A stretch of 64,000 nucleotides of DNA, taken from NCBI GenBank assembly GCA_963728475.1, contig CAVSKL010000002.1, positions 868,001 to 932,000 of the forward strand, in the 5' to 3' direction. The translations under genes were made by a program, and so were the position numbers. The notes beneath the pieces are model-generated. The model saw nothing but the letters and a program-made list of their open reading frames with translations, searched no databases and was not told the DNA's origin. Positions within the stretch are counted from its first letter, which is position 1. Every line of letters starts with the position of its first letter. This DNA is from CAVSKL01 sp963728475 [NCBI: Candidatus Eiseniibacteriota bacterium] (GTDB lineage: Bacteria; Eisenbacteria; RBG-16-71-46; JABDJR01). Positions 2,147-60,282 of the stretch are shown here, one piece after another.

Positions 2147-3343
2147 TCAATCCTCCGGGGCGAACTCCGCGAACACCGCGTCGCTCAGGAATCGCGCCTC
2201 GGGGCGGAGGCGGACCCGGCCGCCGGTCCGTTCCAGGAGCCCGCCCGCGGTCAGCCGGGCCAGGGCGGGGGCGTGGCGCCGCGCCAGGGGCTCTCCCCAG
2301 AGCGCCTCGTACGCGGCCTCGGAGAGACCCTCGCGGAGGCGGAGGTTCAGGAACACCCACTCGAACCGCGCTTCCCGTTCCGGAACCGGCCGCGGCTCGG
2401 GGACGCGCCCCGGCTCCGCGTACGCGGCCAGCCAGAGTTGGAGGGGGGCGGGGTTGGCCCAGCGGCGCCCGGCCAGGAGGCCGTGGGCGGAGGGGCCGAG
2501 CGCGATGAAGTCCGTGCGCCGCCAGTAGCGCAGGTTGTGGCGGCAGTCGCGGCCGGGGCGGGCGAAGTTCGAGATCTCGTAGAGCGGGAGCCCGGCGGTT
2601 TCGGCGCGCCGGCAAAGAAGGTCGTACTGGAGGCGCGCGGTGTCGTCGTCGGGGCGGGCGGCCCGGCCCAGCGCCACCGCCTCGGCCAGCGGCGTCCCCG
2701 GCTCGAGCCCCAGGCAGTACGCGGAGAGGTGCTCCGGCGCCAGGTCGAGCACCCCTTCCAGGGAGCGGGCGAAGGTGTCCACGCTCTGGCCGGGAAGCCC
2801 GTACATGAGGTCCAGGTTCAGGTTGTCGAAGCCCGCGCCGCGGGCGGTCCGCACCGCCCGCGCCGGCGCCTCCGGGCCGTGAATCCGCCCGAGGCCCCGC
2901 AGTTCCTCCGGGTCCAGGCTTTGCACCCCCAGGCTCACCCGATTGACCCCCGCCTCGCGCATGGCGGCGGCGGTCTCGGGGGTGAAGCTCTCGGGGTTGG
3001 CCTCGCTCGTGAACTCGGCCCCCGGGAGGAGCGTGAACCCGGCGTCGAGGATCGCGCGCAGGCGCCGCCAGCGGCCGGGGGTGAGGGTGGAGGGGGTGCC
3101 TCCTCCCAAGAAGACCGTGTCCAGCTCCGGCCGCCCCCGCCAGGTGGCGCGGGCCCGCGCGGCGATCTCGCGCTCGAGCCCCTCCAGCCACCGGTCGGCG
3201 GCGACGGGGTCGTACTCACCCTTGGCGAAGGCGCAGTAGCTGCAGATCGCCCGGCAGAAGGGGACGTGGACGTAGAGCCCCGCCGGCGGCCGGCCCGGCT
3301 CCCACAGGAGCGGGGAGGAGGCGGAAGCGGGCGTTCCGGTCAA
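2147..3343 (-). CDS. hemW: HemW-like radical SAM protein (heme chaperone family)
   Basis: Radical SAM protein of 398 residues related to coproporphyrinogen III oxidase HemN. The [4Fe-4S] motif is FCRAICSYC (CX3CX2C) near residue 30, followed by VFLGGGTPS, SEANPES, RVSLGVQSLD and LMYGLPGQ, the usual order in HemW. Members bind heme and are thought to deliver it to respiratory enzymes rather than oxidise coproporphyrinogen. The single-Cys spacing and short N terminus favour HemW over HemN. Its ATG overlaps the lepB stop by 4 bases (ATGA). Confidence 0.88.
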   Translation of the reverse strand: MTGTPASASSPLLWEPGRPPAGLYVHVPFCRAICSYCAFAKGEYDPVAADRWLEGLEREIAARARATWRGRPELDTVFLGGGTPSTLTPGRWRRLRAILDAGFTLLPGAEFTSEANPESFTPETAAAMREAGVNRVSLGVQSLDPEELRGLGRIHGPEAPARAVRTARGAGFDNLNLDLMYGLPGQSVDTFARSLEGVLDLAPEHLSAYCLGLEPGTPLAEAVALGRAARPDDDTARLQYDLLCRRAETAGLPLYEISNFARPGRDCRHNLRYWRRTDFIALGPSAHGLLAGRRWANPAPLQLWLAAYAEPGRVPEPRPVPEREARFEWVFLNLRLREGLSEAAYEALWGEPLARRHAPALARLTAGGLLERTGGRVRLRPEARFLSDAVFAEFAPED

Positions 3344-4032
3344 CGGATGATGCGGCCGATCCGGCCCAGGCGGGGGCGGGTGTGCTCCTTGTCCCAGGAC
3401 CAGTAGATGAACTCGGCCTTCCCCTTGATCAGGTCCCGGTCCAGGAATCCCCAGAACCGGCTGTCGTCGGAGTTGTCGCGGTTGTCGCCCATCATGAAGT
3501 AGTGCCGGGGCGGCACCACCACCGGGCCGTAATTGTCGCGGTTCCCGGCTCCGGGGGGATAGATGTTGGGGTTCTGGTAACCCTCGGGGCGGACCCGGGC
3601 TCCGGAGAAGAGCGCGTAGGGCTCGTCCTGCTTCACCCCGTTGACGAAGACCGTCTTGTCCCGGATCTCGATCGTGTCCCCGGGGGCTCCGACCAGCCGC
3701 TTGATGAAGTCGCGGGTGGGATCCTTGGGAAACTTGAACACCATCACGTCCCCGTGCCGGGGGTTGCGGACCTGCGGGAGCCGGACGTCGGTGAACGGCA
3801 CCTTGGCCCCGTAGAGGAACTTGTTCACGAAGAGGAAGTCGCCGACCAGGAGGGTGTTCTCCATGGAGCCGGTGGGAATGCGGAAAGCCTGGATGACGAA
3901 GGTGCGGATGAACAGGGTGAGGATGACGGCGATGACGATCGCCTCGGAGTACTCCCTCACCGCCGACTTGTGCTGGACCCCGTCCTTGCGCGTCTTGGCG
4001 CGGCCGGCGGCCCGTTCGTCCTGGGCGGCCAT
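3340..4032 (-). CDS. lepB: Signal peptidase I
   Basis: Membrane serine protease of 230 residues that removes signal peptides from exported proteins. One transmembrane helix (residues about 29-49, IVIAVILTLFIRTFVI) precedes the catalytic domain. The catalytic Ser is in IPTGSMENTLL and the general-base Lys in FIKRLVGAPGD; GDNRDNSDDSRFWG is the family box. The many secreted proteins in this window are its likely clients. The start overlaps the lepA stop by one base, within one operon from DUF5683 to the methyltransferase. Confidence 0.95.
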   Translation of the reverse strand: MAAQDERAAGRAKTRKDGVQHKSAVREYSEAIVIAVILTLFIRTFVIQAFRIPTGSMENTLLVGDFLFVNKFLYGAKVPFTDVRLPQVRNPRHGDVMVFKFPKDPTRDFIKRLVGAPGDTIEIRDKTVFVNGVKQDEPYALFSGARVRPEGYQNPNIYPPGAGNRDNYGPVVVPPRHYFMMGDNRDNSDDSRFWGFLDRDLIKGKAEFIYWSWDKEHTRPRLGRIGRIIR

Positions 4033-6469: not shown

Positions 6470-6567
6470 TGGCGGAGACGCGTGGGAATCGAACCCACCC
6501 CGGACGGGATTAGCGCCCGGCTGAAGGATTTGAAGTCCTCGGGGCCCACCAGGACCCGTTCGCCTCC
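6470..6567 (-). tRNA. selC: tRNA-Sec (anticodon TCA)
   Basis: A 98-base gene including an encoded CCA. The anticodon loop is CTTCAAA with anticodon TCA, which reads UGA. The D stem has six pairs (GGGTCC with GGGCCC), the variable arm is long (stem CGGG/CCCG), and the T arm is GTGGG-TTCGATT-CCCAC. These three traits are specific to selenocysteine tRNA. The acceptor begins GGAGGCG and ends CGTCTCC-G-CCA, with a G.U pair and an A.G mismatch at the eighth pair. No selA, selB or selD lies in this window. Confidence 0.95.
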
Positions 6568-8934: not shown

Positions 8935-10281
8935 TTAAGCCAGGGCCGACTCCGCCGCCCCGGCCAGGGCCCGGGCCCGGCCGGGATCGGGGGATTCGGC
9001 GATCACTCTGATGATCGGCTCGGTGCCGGACTTTCTCAAGTGTACCCATTCCCTACCCGCGGCGAGCCGCAGTCCGTCCCGGCGATCGGCGGAGGCTCCG
9101 GCCAGGAGCGACCTCACCGAGGCCTCGGCGGCGGCCCAATCCGGTTCCCGGGTGAGTTCGACCTTGCGCTTGACCATGCTGAGGGCGGGCAGGCTCCCCA
9201 CCCACTCCGAGAGGCTCCCCCCCCGGCGGACGAGGCCGGTGAGGACCAGCGCCACCCCCACCGGAGCGTCGCGGCCCAGGTGGAGCGCGGGAAGGATCAC
9301 CCCTCCGTTCCCCTCGCCTCCGATCCGGGCGCCGTGTTCGAGGATCCCCGCCACCACGTTCGCCTCCCCCACCGGGGTCCGGAACACGGTCTGGCCGTGG
9401 CGCTCGGCCACCGCCTCCAGGCGGGCGCTGGTGGAGAGGTTGGTGACCACCGGGCCGGGGGCGGTCCCCAGGACGTGATCGGCGGCCAGCGCCAGGGTGC
9501 ATTCCTCCCCCACCGCGGTCCCGGTCTCGTCCACCAGCGACAGCCGGTCCACGTCGGGATCGAAGGCCAGGCCCAGGTCCGCCCCCTGCCGGCCCACCTC
9601 CGCGGCGAGAATGCCCAGGTGATCCGCGGTCGGTTCGGGGGGGCGCGGGAAGATGCCGGTGGGCTCCTCGAAGAGGATGGTGAAGTCGGCGCCCAGCCGC
9701 TCCAGGAGCTCGCGGGCGACCGCTCCCCCGGCGCCGTGGACCGCGTCCAGGATCACCCGGGGGCGTTTCCCGGCGATCGCGGCGGGGTCCACCTCGTCCA
9801 GCTCCAGGATCAGATCCACGTGGTGGCGGACCGCGTCGGCAATCTCGCGCCGGGCGCCCAGGCCGTCCCAGCGAACGGCGGGGAGCGCGTCGTTCACCGA
9901 GGCCAGGAAGCGGCCGGCCTCCTCGGGGTTCAGGAAGCGGCCGGAAGGGCCCACGAACTTGAGCGCGTTCCACTCGATGGGGTTGTGGCTGGCGGTGAGG
10001 GCGATCCCGCCGGCGGCGCGGTGGCGCTCCACCTCGAGCTGGACGGTGGGGGTGGGCACGATCCCCACCTCCAGGACGTCGCGGCCGGCGCCGAGAAGGC
10101 CGGCCAGCACCGCGTGGCGGAGCGCGGGGCCGCTGGGCCGGGAGTCGCGCCCGAACACCACCGGACCGGGTCCGAGGCTCCCGGCGAAGGCGGCGGCGTA
10201 GCGGAGAATCACCTCGGGGGTCAGGGTCTCGCCCACCACCCCGCGGACGCCGGACACGCCGGCCATGAGTTTGGAAGCCAA
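8935..10281 (-). CDS. glmM: Phosphoglucosamine mutase / phosphohexomutase
   Basis: Alpha-D-phosphohexomutase of 448 residues. The phosphoserine loop is TASHNPIEWNALK near residue 95, the Mg-binding loop DPDVDRLS near 240, the sugar loop GEGNGG near 320 and the phosphate loop RKSGTEPIIRV near 418. Position next to glmS favours conversion of glucosamine-6-phosphate to glucosamine-1-phosphate, but phosphomanno/glucomutases share all motifs. A TTG at 10281 is preferred because GGAGG lies 5 bases upstream; the ATG five codons later is too far from any ribosome binding site. Confidence 0.88.
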   Translation of the reverse strand: MASKLMAGVSGVRGVVGETLTPEVILRYAAAFAGSLGPGPVVFGRDSRPSGPALRHAVLAGLLGAGRDVLEVGIVPTPTVQLEVERHRAAGGIALTASHNPIEWNALKFVGPSGRFLNPEEAGRFLASVNDALPAVRWDGLGARREIADAVRHHVDLILELDEVDPAAIAGKRPRVILDAVHGAGGAVARELLERLGADFTILFEEPTGIFPRPPEPTADHLGILAAEVGRQGADLGLAFDPDVDRLSLVDETGTAVGEECTLALAADHVLGTAPGPVVTNLSTSARLEAVAERHGQTVFRTPVGEANVVAGILEHGARIGGEGNGGVILPALHLGRDAPVGVALVLTGLVRRGGSLSEWVGSLPALSMVKRKVELTREPDWAAAEASVRSLLAGASADRRDGLRLAAGREWVHLRKSGTEPIIRVIAESPDPGRARALAGAAESALA

Positions 10282-11377: not shown

Positions 11378-11491
11378 GCACGAGGCCGCGGTGCCGTCCT
11401 TGACGTAGCCGGTGACGAACACCGCGTCGGCCAGGTTCACCCCGTCCCCGAAGGGTTCGGTGAAGTCCGAGCAGACGGCCTGCGCCCCCGC
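11378..11491 (-). pseudogene. In-frame continuation of the secreted paralog beyond a TAG stop
   Basis: Directly after the TAG that ends the gene at 11492-12028, the same frame continues with AVCSDFTEPFGDGVNLADAV and VKDGTAASC. This matches the C terminus of the copy at 10667-11308 (EICSKFTEPYDAEVGLGDAA, IKRGASASC) with no gap: 13 residues separate the preceding His from the matching Cys in both copies. One base change in an ancestral sense codon would give this TAG. No stop follows soon after the conserved Cys, so the original end is unclear. Confidence 0.65.
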
Positions 11492-12028
11492 CTAGATGTT
11501 GCGGGCGTGGAAGACCGCGTCGGCGAGCGAGACCTGGAAGATCCCGTCATCGCAGGTGGTCCGGCCGGAATCGGTGGGGGTAAGGCCCTGGGCGTTCACC
11601 GCGTCCGGCGAGTTCACCCCCACTTCCGCCATCAACACCCCGTCCGCCCTCACCTGGGCTATGAACGACCCTCCGCCCCAGGTGGCCGGGTCCAGGCATC
11701 CGCCGGCCGCGACGTGGAAGGTCGCCTCCCCGTTGGCATCGGCGACGGCCAGGAGCAACGGATGATCCTGCCCCGGGGCCCACGAAATGAGGCTGTCGGC
11801 CTCGGAGGAAAACTCCAGCTCGACGTAGGCGCCGGAGACCGGCCCCCTCCCGCACACCACGATCCGGACGGTGTAGGCGGCCGAGCCGTCGGGGGTCACC
11901 GTGACCATGGCGGGGATGGTGGAGCAGGATGGGTCCGGAAAGGGATTGGCGGCGGGGCCGGTCGAGGCCCCTGCGGGCGCGGCCAAGGCCGCCATCAGGG
12001 CCCCGCCCGCCAACAGGTGACGAATCAT
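11492..12028 (-). CDS. Secreted protein of unknown function, copy 2 (C-terminally truncated)
   Basis: Protein of 178 residues with a signal peptide (MIRHLLAGGALMAALAAPAGA). It is paralogous to the protein at 10667-11308: both carry an ISWAPGQ-H-P motif, NSPDAVNA, TCDDG and SLADA in the same order. The ATG at 12028 follows AAGGAGG. The reading frame stops at a TAG (AVFHARNI-stop), about 35 residues earlier than its partner, although the missing C terminus is still readable in frame. Either a recent nonsense mutation, readthrough, or a base error. Function unknown. Confidence 0.7.
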   Translation of the reverse strand: MIRHLLAGGALMAALAAPAGASTGPAANPFPDPSCSTIPAMVTVTPDGSAAYTVRIVVCGRGPVSGAYVELEFSSEADSLISWAPGQDHPLLLAVADANGEATFHVAAGGCLDPATWGGGSFIAQVRADGVLMAEVGVNSPDAVNAQGLTPTDSGRTTCDDGIFQVSLADAVFHARNI

Positions 12029-53114: not shown

Positions 53115-54308
53115 TCACGCGGCCTTGAGCCCGCTCTTGGAGATGAGGTTGTTGAGCTCCTGCGGGTCGAAGCTCCGTCCGAGCGCTTCTTCGTGGCTGA
53201 TGAGCCGGTTGGCGTAGGCGGCGAACAGGGCCTGGTTCATGGTCTGCATCCCGAACTTGGCCCCCGCCTGCATCAGCGTGTAGATCTGGTGGGTCTTCCC
53301 CTCGCGGATGATGGCCTTGATGGCGGGGGTGCAGACCAGGACCTCGGGGATGAGGACCCGGCCGCCGCCCCGGGCCTTGGGCAGGAGCTGCTGGGCCACC
53401 ACCCCCTCCAGCACGAAGGCGAGCTGGGACAGGACCTGCTGCTGCTGGGAAGGTGGGAATACGTCCACCACCCGGCTCACCGCCTCGAAGGTGGAGTTGG
53501 TGTGGAGGGTGGCGAAGACCAGGTGGCCGGTCTCGGCGATGGTCAGGGCCGCCGCGATGGTCTCCAGGTCCCGCATTTCCCCCACCATGATCACGTCCGG
53601 GTCCTGCCGGAGGACGAACTTGAGGGCGTTGGCGAAGCTTTCGGTGTCGGCGTTGATCTCCCGCTGGTTCACGATGCACTTCTTGTGCTGGTGCACGAAC
53701 TCGATCGGGTCCTCGATGGTCATGATGTGGCTCCGGCGTTCCTCGTTGATCATGTTGATGAGGGCGGCCAGGGTGGTGGACTTGCCGCTGCCGGTGGGGC
53801 CGGTGACCAGCACCAGGCCCTTGGGCTTGCGGGCGAAGTCGACGATGGTCTTGGGCAGCCCCAGCTGCTCCACCGTCTGCACGCTGTAGGGAATCTGCCG
53901 GATGGCCATGCTGACCACCCCGCGCTGGAGGAAGATGTTGGCCCGGAACCGGGAGAGGCCGGGAATGCCGAACGACACGTCCAGCTCCCGCCGCATCTCG
54001 AAGCGCTTGCGCTGCTCCTCGGTGAGGACCGAGTAGGCCAGCCTCTCGCACATTTCGGGCTTGAGCGGCCGGTAGGCCCCGGGCAGGAGCTGCCCGTCCA
54101 CCCGGAACATCGGCGGCACCCCCGCGGTGAGATGGAGGTCCGACGCCTTCTTGGTGATCGCCTCCTTGAGGAGGTCGTGCATGTTGAGCGCGTTCCCCGG
54201 CCCCGAAGCGGGGGCGGGACCGCCGGCGGCGGGAGCGGGCACGGCCGTCCCGGGAACGACCTGGGGCCGGGGCCCGGGTCCCGTGGGCGGGAGGTTGGGA
54301 TTAGTCAT
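53115..54308 (-). CDS. pilT: Twitching motility retraction ATPase PilT
   Basis: Hexameric ATPase of 397 residues that retracts the pilus. Walker A GPTGSGKST at about 170, Asp box TIEDPIEFVHQHK, Walker B VIMVGEMRDLETI, His box ALTIAETGHLVFATLHTN, and the PilT-specific AIRxGK-like AIIREGKTHQIYT. A Pro/Ala-rich extension of about 40 residues precedes the usual start (MHDLLKEAITKKASDLHLT); the first ATG is kept because it overlaps the pilB stop. Confidence 0.94.
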   Translation of the reverse strand: MTNPNLPPTGPGPRPQVVPGTAVPAPAAGGPAPASGPGNALNMHDLLKEAITKKASDLHLTAGVPPMFRVDGQLLPGAYRPLKPEMCERLAYSVLTEEQRKRFEMRRELDVSFGIPGLSRFRANIFLQRGVVSMAIRQIPYSVQTVEQLGLPKTIVDFARKPKGLVLVTGPTGSGKSTTLAALINMINEERRSHIMTIEDPIEFVHQHKKCIVNQREINADTESFANALKFVLRQDPDVIMVGEMRDLETIAAALTIAETGHLVFATLHTNSTFEAVSRVVDVFPPSQQQQVLSQLAFVLEGVVAQQLLPKARGGGRVLIPEVLVCTPAIKAIIREGKTHQIYTLMQAGAKFGMQTMNQALFAAYANRLISHEEALGRSFDPQELNNLISKSGLKAA

Positions 54309-55992
54309 CTTTCGCGCTCTCCTTCAACACCTCTTCCACCGAGGTGATACCGGACTTGAGTTTGCCCAGGGCGTGGGCGCGCAGGGTCAGCATGCCTTCC
54401 TGGATGGCCAGGCTGCGGATCTCCGAGGTGGGGGCGCGGTCGAGGATCATGTCCCGGACCGCGGGCGAGATCGGCATGACCTCGTAGATCCCCTCCCGGC
54501 CCTTGTAGCCGGTGTTGTTGCAATCGACGCATCCCGCCCCCTCGTGGACCACCAGGTCCTGGGCTTCCTCCTCGCTCAACCCGAGCTCCTCGATGACCTC
54601 GGGGTGGAGGACGGTGGGCTGCTTGCAGTTCTTGCAGATGCGGCGGATGAGCCGCTGGGCCATGATCAGGTTCACCGAGCTCGCCACCAAGAACGGCTCC
54701 ACTCCCATGTCGACCAGGCGGTTCAGGGTGCTGGGGGCGTCGTTGGTGTGCAGGGTGGAGAGCACCAGGTGCCCGGTGAGGGCGGCCTTGACCCCGATCG
54801 ACGCGGTCTCAATGTCCCGGATCTCCCCGACCATGACGATGTTGGGGTCCTGGCGGAGGAAGGCGCGGAGGGCGGCGGCGAAGGTGAGGCCGATCTCCTC
54901 GTTCACGTTCACCTGGTTGATCCCGTCCAGGTTGTACTCCACCGGGTCCTCGGCGGTCATGATGTTGACGCTGGTCTTGTTGACCCGGCTCAACGCCGAG
55001 TAGAGGGTGGTGGTCTTGCCGCTCCCGGTGGGACCGGTGACCAGGACCATGCCGTAGGGCATCTCGATCGCCTTCACCAGCTTCTTGAGCGAGGCCGCGT
55101 CGAAGCCCATCTTGGTGAGGTCGATGTTGAGGTTCGACTTGTCCAGGATACGCATCACGATCTTCTCCCCGTAGATCGTGGGCAGGGTGGACACCCGGAG
55201 GTCGATGTTCTTGTTCATGAGCCGGAGCCGGATGCGCCCGTCCTGGGGCACCCGCCGCTCGGCGATGTCGAGTTCGGCCATGATCTTGAGCCGGGAAAGC
55301 ATGGCGGACTTGAGCCGGTGGGGCGGGCTCATCATCTCGTAGAGTTCGCCGTCGATGCGGAACCGCACCCGGAGCGATTTCTCGAACGGCTCCACGTGGA
55401 TGTCCGAGGCCCCCTTGCGGATCGCGTCGGCCAGGAGCGAGTTCACCAGCTTCACCACCGGGGCTTCTTCCGCGGTGATGTCGCCCAGGTTGACCGCCTC
55501 GTCCTCGGCATCCTCGACGATCTCCACGTCGTCGTCGAACTGCTTCATCACGCTGGCCAGCGACTCGTGGCTGTCGTAGAACCGGTCGATGGCCTTCTTG
55601 ATCGCGTCCTCGGACGCCACGCAGGTCTCGACCTCGCAGCCGGTGATGAACTTGATGTCGTCGAGGGCGAAGATGTTGGACGGATTGGCCATGACCACGG
55701 TGAGCTTGCGCCCGTTCCGCTTCATGGGCACCACCTGGAAGCGGCTGGCCACGTCGGCGGGAATGAGCCGGATCACCGCCGGGTCCACGTCGAGGTTGCC
55801 GATGTCCACTACCGGCGCGCTGTAGAACTTGCCCAGGAAATCGTTCAGCTCGTCCTGGCTGAGGGCTCCCACCTTGACCAGGTTCACGGCGAGCGACCCG
55901 CCCCCCGACTTGGCCAGGCGCTCGGCGTCGTTCAAGTGCTGTTTGGAGATCTTCTTGGTCTCGATGAGGCGCTGGTTCAGGGTGTCCTGCAA
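54301..55992 (-). CDS. pilB: Type IV pilus extension ATPase PilB
   Basis: ATPase of 563 residues that powers pilus extension. An N-terminal MshEN/GSPII_E domain (1-150) is followed by the ATPase core: GASDIHVEP, Walker A GPTGSGKTTT near 320, Asp box MTAEDPVEYNL, Walker B IVMVGEIRDIETA and a tetracysteine zinc site (CKNC near 450, CVDC near 490). The TTG start at 55992 has GGAGG 7 bases upstream and gives the family N terminus; the frame upstream lacks family similarity. First gene of pilB-pilT-pilC-pilS-pilR. The 232 bases before it show no clear promoter. Confidence 0.93.
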   Translation of the reverse strand: MQDTLNQRLIETKKISKQHLNDAERLAKSGGGSLAVNLVKVGALSQDELNDFLGKFYSAPVVDIGNLDVDPAVIRLIPADVASRFQVVPMKRNGRKLTVVMANPSNIFALDDIKFITGCEVETCVASEDAIKKAIDRFYDSHESLASVMKQFDDDVEIVEDAEDEAVNLGDITAEEAPVVKLVNSLLADAIRKGASDIHVEPFEKSLRVRFRIDGELYEMMSPPHRLKSAMLSRLKIMAELDIAERRVPQDGRIRLRLMNKNIDLRVSTLPTIYGEKIVMRILDKSNLNIDLTKMGFDAASLKKLVKAIEMPYGMVLVTGPTGSGKTTTLYSALSRVNKTSVNIMTAEDPVEYNLDGINQVNVNEEIGLTFAAALRAFLRQDPNIVMVGEIRDIETASIGVKAALTGHLVLSTLHTNDAPSTLNRLVDMGVEPFLVASSVNLIMAQRLIRRICKNCKQPTVLHPEVIEELGLSEEEAQDLVVHEGAGCVDCNNTGYKGREGIYEVMPISPAVRDMILDRAPTSEIRSLAIQEGMLTLRAHALGKLKSGITSVEEVLKESAKDD

Positions 55993-56224: not shown

Positions 56225-56722
56225 TCATGGGAGATTCAATAGCGGGCGCATCCGGGCCAGGGTGGCGGGCCCGATTCCCGGGACCCGGAGGAGGTCCTCG
56301 GCCCGGCGATAGGGTCCCCGGCGGGCCCGGTCGGCCACGATCCGGCCGGCCAGGGCCGGCCCGATTCCCGGGAGCGCGGTGAGGGCCTCCGGTCCCGCGG
56401 TGTTGGGGTCGATCCTCGCCCGCGCGGACGGCGCTTCCTCCGGGGACGCGCCGGGCCCCGGGGGGGCGCCCGCGGCGGCGCTCCCAGGGCCCGGTTGCGG
56501 GGCCTCGGGGGGATGCGCGAGGGCCCCGGGGGCGGTCGGGGCGCCCTCCCCTCCCGGCGCCGTCGCCGGTCCGTTCGCGGGGGCGGGGCCCTCGGTGAGC
56601 CAGGCCTCCACCCGGGGGTCTAGCCGGCGGCCCAGGTGGACCGCCGAGCCCACCAGGGCCAGGCCGAAAACCAGCACCGCCAGCCGCCGTTCGGCGGTGG
56701 TGAGAAGTCCGTGGACGCGCAC
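56225..56722 (-). CDS. comEA: ComEA-like helix-hairpin-helix protein
   Basis: Protein of 165 residues with an N-terminal membrane anchor (about 11-32, RRLAVLVFGLALVGSAVHLG), a Pro/Ala/Gly-rich linker (45-100) and a C-terminal double helix-hairpin-helix domain: DPNTAGPEALTALPGIGPAL, then YRRAEDLLRVPGIGPATLA. This is the layout of ComEA, the periplasmic receptor that ratchets DNA into the cell during transformation. The GTG start is weakly supported by AAAGGA. With dprA and the pilus it supports competence. Confidence 0.82.
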   Translation of the reverse strand: MRVHGLLTTAERRLAVLVFGLALVGSAVHLGRRLDPRVEAWLTEGPAPANGPATAPGGEGAPTAPGALAHPPEAPQPGPGSAAAGAPPGPGASPEEAPSARARIDPNTAGPEALTALPGIGPALAGRIVADRARRGPYRRAEDLLRVPGIGPATLARMRPLLNLP

Positions 56723-56777: not shown

Positions 56778-59354
56778 TCAGTCGCGCAGGTACATGGTGA
56801 GACCCAGGAGGACGGTCTGGCCGGGGATGGGAAGCGGGGTGACGGTGTCGTTGCTCCGGAGATCCGACTCCATGTAGATGCTCCCGAGGTTCTGGAAGCC
56901 CAGGATGAGGAGCCCGTTGTCGATCCGGCCGGTGAGGCGGGCGTATCCCACCGCGGTGGTGGGATAGAGGGCGCCGTTCGGGTTCCGCCGCGGGCCCACC
57001 AGCGCCCCCCCGATGGAGGCGTCGAGGTCGAGGCTCCGCTTGAACCACAGCCGGCGCCAGTGGAGCGCGCCCCGGGCGGAGAACGCGGGGAGGTAGGGCA
57101 CCTCCCGGTCGTCGCGATTCTGCGTCCGCCCCTCCCCCTCGCCGAAGAGGTGGGTTCCCGCGTTCACGCGGAAACGGGCGTAGAGCCCCTGCACGTCGCC
57201 GGTGGTTCCCGGCGAGAAAACCGGCGCGTAGTCGCTGGCCAGGGGAACCCAGAGGGGGTTCGAGTCGATCCGGTACCCGGTGATCCGCGCCGCCCACATC
57301 CCCGCGGCCAGCGCCGCCCACCCTCCCTTCCAGCCCGCCTCCGCCCGCACCGCGTTCCGCGTCTCGGGCCGCTCGGCGGTCTCGTACCGCTCGAGCCACG
57401 ACGAGACCCCCGCCTCCGGCGCCGGCCGGTCCACGTCGAGGACCAGGGGCGGGAGGTCCACCTCGCGGCTGGCCGCGAGCCGGAGGCCCCAGGACCCGCG
57501 TTCGTATCCGGCGACGAGCGCCCCCTCGGCGAAGTTTCCGTAGGGCTCCTGATGCCCGGCCGAGGCCTCGGCCCCCAGCCGCACCCCCCCCCGGGATCCG
57601 CTCCAGGACGCCTCTCCCCGCTCCCCGTCCAGGGTGCGGGAGGGATCGAGGCCGCCCCGCCGGCGGTCGCGGTCGAAACGGGCGCGGAGGGTGAGGCCGG
57701 GGACCGGCGCCGCCCAGTCGGCCTGGGCGGTGCCGCCGTCGAAGATGATCTCGCCGAAGGCGCCGGCGCCCCCGGAGAGCTGGAGGGCCTGGCGGCGAAG
57801 GGCCAGGGTGAGCCGGGTGGCGCCTCCCAGGAAGGGGCCGTTGAGCGAGGTCTGGAGCCGCCGGGAGAGGCGGTTGAGGCGCTGGCCGGTGGAGAGGGTG
57901 CGTTTGTCCTCCCCCCCCGCCACGTCCACCGACCAGTCGGGACGCCGGCCCGCGATCGACTCCACCCGGAGCCACAGCCGGTCGCCGGCGGCGGTGCCCG
58001 AGAGGAAGCCGCCCAGCGCGTCGAGGAGCGCCTCCTCGCGGTCGCGGAAGTCCACCCCCACGTTCACCGGGCCCAGGTTCCGGAAGAGCGCGAACTCCGC
58101 GGTGCGCCGGCCCAGGCTGCCGCTGGTGAGCGAGATCTGGCTCAGGGGCGAGCCCTCCGCCGGAGGCGGCGAGGCCACGTCCACCCGGGTCCCCGACGCG
58201 GTCCAGCGCTCCCGCCACCCCGCCCGCCAGGCCAGGGGAAGATCGGGCGGCTCCCCGAAGTCGTGAACCGGGCCCGCCATGGGCACCCCGTCGTAGCTGT
58301 AGCGCACCCGCCCCCAACCCAGGCCCCAGGCGTCCAGGACCGAGGGGAGCGCGGGAGCGGTGGTCCAGGAGCGGGCGGCGCCGGCGAAAACGTCCGTGTC
58401 CTGGAGCTGGGTCACCCCCAGGGGGGCGGCGGCGGCGACGTCGAGCGGCTGCCACACCGGAGCCGGACGGAGGGCCAGCGGGCGGAGGGGCGTGCCGGGG
58501 GGCGGAGGCCGGAGGGGAACCTCGACCGTGTCCACCACCGCCGCGGCCGCGGTGTCGCGCAGGGACGGGGCGAGCAGGGTGTCCACCACCACGGTGTCGG
58601 GGGGAGCGGGAACGAAGGTGTCCACGGGGCCGTGGTCGAAGACGGTATCGGGGAGGGCCACCACCCGCCGTCCCCGCCCGGCGCCCCCGGGGGCGGCTTC
58701 GAGCGGATCGGAGGGAACGGGGGCCGCTTGCGAACGGGCCCCCACCACCAGCGCGCCCGCGACCACGACCACGACCAGCCCGGCCCGCGCCTCGCGCCAC
58801 CAGCCGCGGCGGCGCGCCTCGCGGCGGAGCACGGTGGCGGCCACCGGGCCTCCCACCGCGAACACCGCCGCGTTCCAGATCATGTCCAGGAGCCCGAACA
58901 GCATGCCCGAGACGAAGGCGGCGGTGCGGGTGGCCTCCCCGGAGCCCAGGAACCAGGCGTAGGCCCCGTTCAGCAGCGCCTGGTCGAGCGCGGCGAGGAG
59001 GAAACCGATCGCGGGGAGCGCCAGCATCGCCCCCCGCCGGGGCGCCCGCCCCCGGAGCCAGGCCCGGCGCCAGAGCGCCCCCGCTCCGCCGGTGATCGCC
59101 ATCCCCAGCATCTGGGTGGCCAGGACCGGGAGCGGCGAGGGGGGGAAGCCGTGAACCGCGCTGTTGGCGAAGGTGTAGAGGAGCATGCCGGCGGCGCCGA
59201 TCAGGGCTCCCGCCCGGGCGCCGAGGAGCAATCCCGCGGTGAACGCGGTGAGCGTCACCAGCTCCACGTGGGGAACCAGGGAGAGCGCCAGCCCCACCGC
59301 CACCATCGCGGCGAGGAACGCGGCCGACAGAGCGAGTCGTTCGGTTTCGGTCAT
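56778..59354 (-). CDS. ECF S-component-like membrane domain fused to a TonB-receptor-like barrel
   Basis: Single frame of 858 residues. Residues 1-180 are five to six hydrophobic helices resembling the substrate-binding S component of ECF vitamin transporters (PHVELVTLTAFTAGLLLGARAG and PLPVLATQMLGMAITGGAG). Residues 181-212 look like a signal peptide: basic RREARRRGWWREAR, then GLVVVVVAGALVVGA and ARSQAAP. Residues 213-858 form a plug-like part (LDAWGLGWGRVRYSYDGVPMAGP) and many amphipathic strands as in outer-membrane receptors, ending LLGLTMYLRD. No stop and no ribosome binding site separate the halves. Substrate unknown. The start site is weakly supported. Confidence 0.7.
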   Translation of the reverse strand: MTETERLALSAAFLAAMVAVGLALSLVPHVELVTLTAFTAGLLLGARAGALIGAAGMLLYTFANSAVHGFPPSPLPVLATQMLGMAITGGAGALWRRAWLRGRAPRRGAMLALPAIGFLLAALDQALLNGAYAWFLGSGEATRTAAFVSGMLFGLLDMIWNAAVFAVGGPVAATVLRREARRRGWWREARAGLVVVVVAGALVVGARSQAAPVPSDPLEAAPGGAGRGRRVVALPDTVFDHGPVDTFVPAPPDTVVVDTLLAPSLRDTAAAAVVDTVEVPLRPPPPGTPLRPLALRPAPVWQPLDVAAAAPLGVTQLQDTDVFAGAARSWTTAPALPSVLDAWGLGWGRVRYSYDGVPMAGPVHDFGEPPDLPLAWRAGWRERWTASGTRVDVASPPPAEGSPLSQISLTSGSLGRRTAEFALFRNLGPVNVGVDFRDREEALLDALGGFLSGTAAGDRLWLRVESIAGRRPDWSVDVAGGEDKRTLSTGQRLNRLSRRLQTSLNGPFLGGATRLTLALRRQALQLSGGAGAFGEIIFDGGTAQADWAAPVPGLTLRARFDRDRRRGGLDPSRTLDGERGEASWSGSRGGVRLGAEASAGHQEPYGNFAEGALVAGYERGSWGLRLAASREVDLPPLVLDVDRPAPEAGVSSWLERYETAERPETRNAVRAEAGWKGGWAALAAGMWAARITGYRIDSNPLWVPLASDYAPVFSPGTTGDVQGLYARFRVNAGTHLFGEGEGRTQNRDDREVPYLPAFSARGALHWRRLWFKRSLDLDASIGGALVGPRRNPNGALYPTTAVGYARLTGRIDNGLLILGFQNLGSIYMESDLRSNDTVTPLPIPGQTVLLGLTMYLRD

Positions 59355-59433: not shown

Positions 59434-60282
59434 TCACGCGCGGGGGCGCCGCTCGCGGAGCCGGTCGAGAATCTCGGCGGGAATCGGTTCCTGGCCGACC
59501 TCGGCGTCGCCCACGCTCGCCCCATGATAGTCGGATCCCCCGGCGGGGACCAGATCCAGCTCGCGGGCCCGGCGGAGATACCCCTCGCGCTGCCCGGAAT
59601 TGTGCTTGGGGTGCCAGACCTCGATCCCGTCCAGCCCCGCCTCGGCCATGCCGGCGATCCACTCGTCGTGGCGCATGGGTCCGGGATGGGCCAGGGTGGC
59701 GGTCCCTCCCGCTTCGTGGATCCAGCCGATGGCCTCCTCCGGGGAGGGTCCCGGCTTGGGAACGTAACCGGGGGTGCCGGGGCGCAGGAACTTGCGAAAG
59801 GCTTCCTCCACCGAGGACGCCGCGCCCGACTCCACCAGCGCCAGGGCCAGGTGGGGGCGCCCCACCGTGCCCCGTCCCGAGAGCGCGTGCACCCGCTCCA
59901 GGGTAATCGCGATCCCCAGCCCCGCCAGCGCCTCCACCATGGCGCGGGCGCGCTCGGCCCGGGTCCGGGCCAGCTCGCCCAACCGCTCGCGCAGGATCGG
60001 GTCCGCGGGAGAAATGAAGTGGCCGACCAGGTGGACGTCGGTCTGGTTCCGGCGGGCGCTCACCTCGACCCCCGCCACCGCCTCGAATCCCCGGGCGGCG
60101 TTCACGAACTCGACGAGGCCGTCCAGGCAGTCGTGGTCGGTGAGAGCGAGGGCGGCGAGGCCGGCGGCGGCGGCCATGTCCGCGACCCGGGCCGGGGGGT
60201 GCTCGCCGTCGCTGTAATGGCTGTGGGCGTGGAGATCGACGCGGGGGGTGCGGGAGTCCTGGCTAGGCCGCTCCCCGATCAC
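59434..60282 (-). CDS. PHP-domain phosphoesterase
   Basis: Metal-dependent phosphoesterase of 282 residues, of the YciV/TrpH (RNase AM, 3',5'-nucleotide bisphosphatase) group. The four PHP motifs are present: VDLHAHSHYSDG near residue 15, LTDHDCLDGL near 47, a middle His/Glu block (GVEVSARR, HLVGHF), and TLAHPG plus GGSDYHG near the end. The GTG start overlaps the upstream TPR gene by 20 bases, with GGAAG upstream. Likely acts on short RNAs or pAp. Confidence 0.85.
   Translation of the reverse strand: MIGERPSQDSRTPRVDLHAHSHYSDGEHPPARVADMAAAAGLAALALTDHDCLDGLVEFVNAARGFEAVAGVEVSARRNQTDVHLVGHFISPADPILRERLGELARTRAERARAMVEALAGLGIAITLERVHALSGRGTVGRPHLALALVESGAASSVEEAFRKFLRPGTPGYVPKPGPSPEEAIGWIHEAGGTATLAHPGPMRHDEWIAGMAEAGLDGIEVWHPKHNSGQREGYLRRARELDLVPAGGSDYHGASVGDAEVGQEPIPAEILDRLRERRPRA

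Follow-up and report, generated by a model that had tools for sequence, protein, structure and literature searches.

The window analysed here is a stretch of 64,000 nucleotides from CAVSKL01 sp963728475 (Candidatus Eiseniibacteriota bacterium; contig CAVSKL010000002.1, positions 868,001 to 932,000). On its minus strand, at 56778-59354, a single open reading frame (ORF) of 858 residues joins a domain resembling the S component of energy-coupling factor (ECF) transporters to what is best called a diverged outer-membrane barrel. The inner- and outer-membrane steps of uptake are normally made as separate proteins. An earlier note, made from the sequence alone, had proposed that one frame joins the two, with the joint at 58719-58830. 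Translation confirmed this observation: the 858 codons contain zero stops, and those coordinates cover the joint. The same frame is open upstream to 59525, so the start could lie up to 57 codons further upstream, and nine 30-codon stretches spanning codons 88-357 have a G+C content of 0.80-1.00 at their third positions. The features of the locus are listed in Table 1.

S-component domain, joint and barrel

Residues 1-182 align from end to end with S genes from relatives at 29-41% identity, and the S-component character that the earlier note had assigned to residues 1-180 was borne out by profile searches. PF12822 was matched by all 19 aligned S members at E ≤ 1 (best 7.5e-8); the window member alone gave 0.0041, below the curated cut-off. 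A profile of the 19 sequences matched the S subunit of the pantothenate ECF transporter (PDB 4rfs_S) at 1.9e-4, and its match to ECF-CbrT (PDB 6fnp), a B12 transporter (PMC5997447), was non-significant (0.15). Pfam and NCBIfam searches with the window protein returned sub-threshold S-component and holin/DUF matches only. Across the family alignment, E31, G41, G49, Q81, G84, G89 and G92 are invariant, and the AXXXA motif given as a helix-1 feature of S components (PMC11109136) is present in the window domain as ALSAA (residues 8-12), plus others. Outside the phylum, the S profile gave 0 matches in sets of 11, 247 and 297 genomes, the latter two overlapping, with mostly 11-14 candidates scored per genome shown and without a positive control.

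At the joint, residues 178-212 read REARRRGWWREAR-AGLVVVVVAGALVVGA-RSQA/AP, where the slash marks the putative cleavage site. A basic stretch is followed by a 16-residue hydrophobic core (residues 191-206, 58737-58784) and then by the small-x-small site S208-Q209-A210, with A211 behind it. The joints of two fused relatives described below, SK-LQTIAPGCLVLVAVGLLSSTGLA/SGG in G018 and ARHAARL-AVVAVLGCACAFAPGVAAA/QD in G028, resemble that of the window: the S tail supplies basic residues, a hydrophobic core follows, and positions -3 and -1 hold small amino acids. Judged by eye, the joint of the fused frames reads as a putative signal-peptide-like segment, as the earlier note had also read that of the window. 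A gene for signal peptidase I (S26) lies in the same window at 3343-4032 (PF10502, 1.4e-52).

The distal half (residues 213-858) had been taken for a TonB-dependent receptor. Gene position, profile comparisons and the intact receptor of G018 all support a receptor-type assignment; the window barrel itself gave no Pfam or NCBIfam match, plug and barrel families included, has a degenerate plug and shows no TonB box that could be picked out by eye. Among 22 downstream proteins, four (G014, G015, G016 and the fused G018) carry a Pfam plug and TonB-receptor barrel, and the other 18, including the window, are without a Pfam plug. As a profile, the four intact receptors matched Cir (2e-34), PirA (1.4e-27), FepA (9e-27) and BtuB (7e-26) in the PDB, and are thus akin to Cir-, FepA- and BtuB-type receptors; the window and the 17 other diverged barrels differ from these, and the 18 as a profile matched no solved structure. 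In hhalign comparisons, the window barrel was co-linear with the four intact receptors in the plug region (YDGVP against DGVP; E 0.031, eight shuffles 0.12-0.89) and with the 17 diverged relatives, window excluded, over 264 C-terminal columns (E 6.9e-4, eight shuffles 0.44-0.77). The 18 diverged barrels together aligned with the four intact receptors over 253 C-terminal columns (probability 94%, E 1.1e-7). The barrel alignments leave out L057 (broken frame) and L058, L060 and L070 (contigs that end early). Given hhalign E values better than those of the shuffles and the absent Pfam match, the window barrel is best called a diverged TonB-receptor-type barrel with a degenerate plug. In G018, EIVVTATR is presumably a TonB-box-like motif. 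The L057 barrel changes frame: its C-terminal part (11392-11817) is out of frame with the remainder, through assembly error or decay.

Table 1 Features of the fused locus and its neighbours in the window
Feature	Coordinates	Strand	Basis
Fused open frame, 858 codons + stop	56778..59354	(-)	translation
S-component domain, residues 1-182	58809..59354	(-)	alignments, PF12822, PDB profile match
Candidate internal in-frame start GTG, residue 171, GGGAGG 4 nt upstream	58842..58844	(-)	start-codon reading
Joint, residues 178-212: basic tail, hydrophobic core, cleavage-like site	58719..58823	(-)	sequence, by eye
Pro/Ala/Asp-Thr-rich linker behind putative cleavage site	58341..58724	(-)	sequence; end from hhalign alignment
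Degenerate plug-like segment incl. YDGVP, residues 339-432	58059..58340	(-)	hhalign vs four intact receptors
Diverged outer-membrane barrel region, ending ...GLTMYLRD	56781..58058	(-)	hhalign vs relatives
Upstream neighbour, PHP-domain protein	59434..60282	(-)	PF02811; order in relatives
Downstream neighbour, helix-hairpin-helix (HhH; ComEA-like) protein	56225..56722	(-)	PF12836; order in relatives
PilB-type ATPase, phylum placement marker	54301..55992	(-)	PF00437; PilB tree

Fused and split relatives

The Eisenbacteria phylum search covered 47 genomes, 24 of which were matched by the S profile and 17 by the fusion protein (20 places, three of them false). The three false matches (L046-L048; regions L066-L068) were dropped, their frames being read by eye as glycine hydroxymethyltransferase. 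In 22 of the 24 genomes with S, the S gene is ended by a stop codon and the barrel lies in a different frame, an outcome that the earlier note had named beforehand as refuting. In-frame fusions were found in the remaining two, G018 (L062/L076) and G028 (L069), so that three of 25 lineages, window included, are fused. With 22 of 24 relatives split, the fusion is a lineage-specific variant and not a general design. The open frame of G018 has 968 codons, 933 from its ATG, at about 54% G+C and with at least 25 stops in each other frame; Pfam recognises in it the PF00593 barrel (1.3e-30), the PF07715 plug (7.4e-23) and an S-component model at 4e-4, below its cut-off. In G028, the S gene is cut between two contigs and the joint is intact.

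Gene order is shared with split relatives. Candidatus Eisenbacteria WS_7 (L001), whose PilB is closest to that of the window among the scan matches (67% identity), has the order PHP - S - barrel - HhH - PilB as in the window, with S and barrel as separate overlapping frames. A tblastn comparison recovered the full order PHP - S - HhH - PilB in 14 of 18 loci; three others (L056, L058 and L060) are truncated at contig ends, and S in L065 was reached by profile only. The window PilB falls within a fully supported tree group (100/100) of 21 Eisenbacteria rows. On this tree, the fused label needs three changes, at least two of them forced by well-supported branches. The window diverges first, and the long G018 branch leaves from the fork after it, which is not resolved; with both placed so weakly (83/72), either fusion or splitting may have come first. 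G028 groups with nine of the ten loci with a long gene overlap described next (100/97; L058 is outside the tree).

The split relatives start the barrel in several ways. Ten loci (L049, L050, L053, L055-L059, L061, L063) read the barrel in frame +2 with respect to S and have an ATG ahead of the S stop, at a distance of 91 nt (88 in L055). In all ten, this ATG arises where an A-ending Leu codon precedes a conserved Trp. Of the Leu codons counted in these loci, about 0.6-1.8% are CTA or TTA, and this rarity argues that the out-of-frame ATG inside S is very likely a selected barrel start, giving a long gene overlap. G028 is without the Trp that makes the overlap ATG in its tree neighbours. Eight further loci (L001, L065, L070-L075) use frame +1, with an ATG or GTG that precedes the S stop by 8 nt (by 17 in L065), and in L051, L052 and L054 the receptor starts 17-32 nt after the S stop. 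The last, L064 (G019), is odd: around 9538-9580 a signal-peptide-like segment stands in the +2 barrel frame and the nearest ATG, GTG or TTG is a TTG at -157 from the S stop, which may reflect a frameshift, an unusual start or an assembly error. Programmed frameshifting as a general barrel route in the split relatives, considered because one layout is without ATG, GTG or TTG at the joint, was set aside once 10 of 10 loci had proved to have that ATG, out of frame and 88-91 nt upstream.

Could a consensus or assembly error have removed the S stop from the fused frames? The named relative WS_7 is metagenome-assembled, the L057 frame is broken inside the barrel, and the other frames of G018 have stops near the joint (codons 223, 233 and 256, 258), where an indel is possible. 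Against this, the fusion occurs in three lineages, and a separate G018 receptor would be without a proper start. In the window, the +1 frame is stop-free over codons 159-313 and the +2 frame over all 858 codons, so that a single inserted or deleted base cannot restore an S gene ending at the joint as in the relatives; in G028 the other frames are likewise stop-free over codons 57-198. The window test addresses indels, and a base error at a stop codon (for example at the two Trp codons of the joint) is outside its reach. Overall, we regard an error of this kind as very unlikely.

Riboswitches and partner genes

Loci L051, L052, L054 and L076, exactly the four with an intact plug, have a cobalamin riboswitch (RF00174, 102-120 bits, cut-off 31.5) immediately ahead of S; the fused gene of G018 thus stands directly behind one. 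Neither the window nor the loci of the remaining 20 relatives, some of whose contigs have little upstream sequence (about 440 bases in L072), yielded a riboswitch. The earlier note had looked to a riboswitch to name the substrate; one does so in four relatives and not in the window itself. Its position upstream of S points to vitamin B12 as the ancestral substrate. For the G018 gene and the ancestral system, B12 is well supported through the riboswitch; this does not extend to the present gene of the window, whose substrate is uncertain because riboswitch and recognisable plug are both missing.

The earlier note had likewise suggested looking for an EcfA/EcfT module. EcfT is present in 25 of the 47 genomes; where S occurs, 16 of 24 genomes have it, G018 and G028 among them, and no EcfT match was obtained in the other eight (G001, G040-G045, G047). 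These eight are all eight genomes in which the barrel starts 8 or 17 nt before the S stop, and their S genes are possibly solitary S components. One EcfT copy of G018 lies in a CbiM-CbiQ-CbiO-like set and the other between asd-like and truA-like genes (names by eye). The second copy adjoins an asd-like gene in G018, G028 and G036 (L086, L088, L090), with a truA-like gene on the opposite side in G018 and G036; an adjacent ATPase gene was not recognised there. Strong matches to FecCD, the BtuC family (E<1e-70), were found in 1 of the 24 genomes that have S and in 9 of the 23 that do not (Fisher p 0.004, with the threshold set after the table was seen and kinship ignored); the FecCD match of G018 is weak (2.9e-13). 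Elsewhere in the window, a selenocysteine tRNA gene lies at 6470-6567 (-) (ARAGORN and Rfam).

A putative polyprotein and its precedents

We propose that the window frame is probably a real fusion of two neighbouring uptake genes, an S component and a barrel, that yields a polyprotein cut at the joint by signal peptidase I and that descends from a B12 system. Because the stop codon between the halves is missing, every ribosome translating S continues into the barrel, and in all three fusions S is never made without it. The S part would have six helices with both ends cytoplasmic, as in BtuM, both ends of which are on the cytosolic side (PMC6072759). Its basic tail would then serve as the n-region of the barrel signal peptide, and the hydrophobic core would cross the inner membrane as a seventh segment during Sec export. 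Signal peptidase I would cut after Ala210, the released barrel would be inserted into the outer membrane, and the S component would work with EcfT/EcfA.

The barrel might instead be initiated separately, the two genes merely sharing a frame. It would then be made mainly from GTG171 with the signal peptide MAATVLRREARRRGWWREAR-AGLVVVVVAGALVVGARSQA, and the long product would be a by-product or a carrier of S alone. The purine-rich GGGAGG 4 nt before GTG171 favours such a start, as does the situation in 18 of the 22 split relatives, where the barrel start falls within the S gene and precedes the S stop by 8 to 91 nt. In G018, by contrast, the only start codon in frame over residues 256-297 is a TTG directly before the core, without a Shine-Dalgarno site, and the G028 joint, over the stretch read, has GTGs and one TTG, none with such a site. 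From these starts, separate initiation looks unlikely in G018 and possible in the window, where S would still be made only with the barrel attached, there being no separating stop. Taken together, we consider this alternative rather unlikely. An uncleaved fusion acting as an envelope-spanning tether between S component and barrel is highly improbable. The Pro/Ala-rich linker of about 130 residues behind the window joint would suit a tether; however, small-x-small sites stand at all three joints, only about 40 residues separate the G018 joint from its TonB-box-like motif, and similar linkers occur in split relatives, whose barrels cannot be tethered.

Several results weigh against the proposed polyprotein or its B12 ancestry. 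Apart from the split state of most relatives, the internal GTG and the unmatched barrel, no close relative of the window was found when the full-length fusion protein was scanned against genome contigs, the phylum-search matches to that protein were confined to the S half and the joint, and the highest PilB identity was 69%. Structure prediction, which the earlier note had suggested for both halves, gave something for one: from two sequences, AlphaFold failed on the barrel (pLDDT 28) and gave a poor, low-confidence S model (pLDDT 57) with six helices before residue 183 and a seventh at 185-210 across the joint. Foldseek ranked 4rfs_S first for this weak model (probability 0.94, E 0.36), with nothing at E 0.001 or better, and the hydropathy peaks of the window did not cleanly resolve seven segments. 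As to the substrate, the receptor profile is nearer to Cir and the enterobactin receptors than to BtuB and, since it matches several receptor types, receptor similarity alone does not single out B12. FecCD matches over the curated cut-off show no clear difference (10 of 24 genomes with S, 13 of 23 without), and the folate-family S-component model TIGR04518 was matched by 11 of 19 S members (best 1.6e-6); a TIGR04518 match was not found for the window member in NCBIfam.

The S part could accordingly be vestigial or sensory, or import another vitamin such as folate. Besides the folate-family matches, this would fit the riboswitch missing from the window and 20 relatives, the 18 of 22 barrels without a Pfam plug, the eight S genomes without EcfT, and the occurrence of the S-component fold also in receptors (PMC11109136). 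Set against these, the S family adjoins a barrel frame in all 24 genomes with its invariant residues kept, and cobalamin riboswitches precede four loci. On balance, this reading of the S part, with a substrate other than B12, appears unlikely.

The nearest mechanistic precedent for the proposed polyprotein is FbcH of Bradyrhizobium japonicum, which carries cytochromes b and c1 in one polyprotein and is cleaved at a signal sequence inside it. Both have one gene for two membrane proteins with an internal signal segment, which in the window is read by eye, with cleavage after it predicted. FbcH yields two inner-membrane subunits of one complex, whereas here the second product would reach the outer membrane. 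Known parts and a known trick would be joined here in a combination that would send the halves to different membranes.

BtuM is an S-type protein that imports B12 in Gram-negative bacteria and is recognised in part because its gene lies with btuB (PMC6072759). It resembles the present system in that an S-type protein is encoded beside a receptor gene, with a link to B12 in four loci here. It differs in having an invariant cysteine and a host without EcfT; window residues 1-182 contain no cysteine, and most S genomes here have EcfT. Known S components are described as ending at helix 6 (PMC11109136), whereas the window S domain continues into the signal-peptide-like segment and the barrel; fusions of the related receptor fold mentioned there carry cytosolic domains or NRAMP. 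A fusion of S component and TonB receptor was not found described in the titles and abstract openings searched, which included few subscription journals.

A bolder and distinctly doubtful extension is a recurrent one-gene B12 importer, in which the S tail has turned into an n-region and both steps are made 1:1. The fused state may then be ancestral in the phylum and have been split later into overlapping genes, and an uncleaved fraction could bridge the membranes. For the probable polyprotein itself, a single frame for both steps, present in three lineages, would demonstrate that an ECF S component and an outer-membrane receptor can be linked through an internal signal peptide, and the fusion gives a testable substrate, vitamin B12, for an uncharacterised S-component family.
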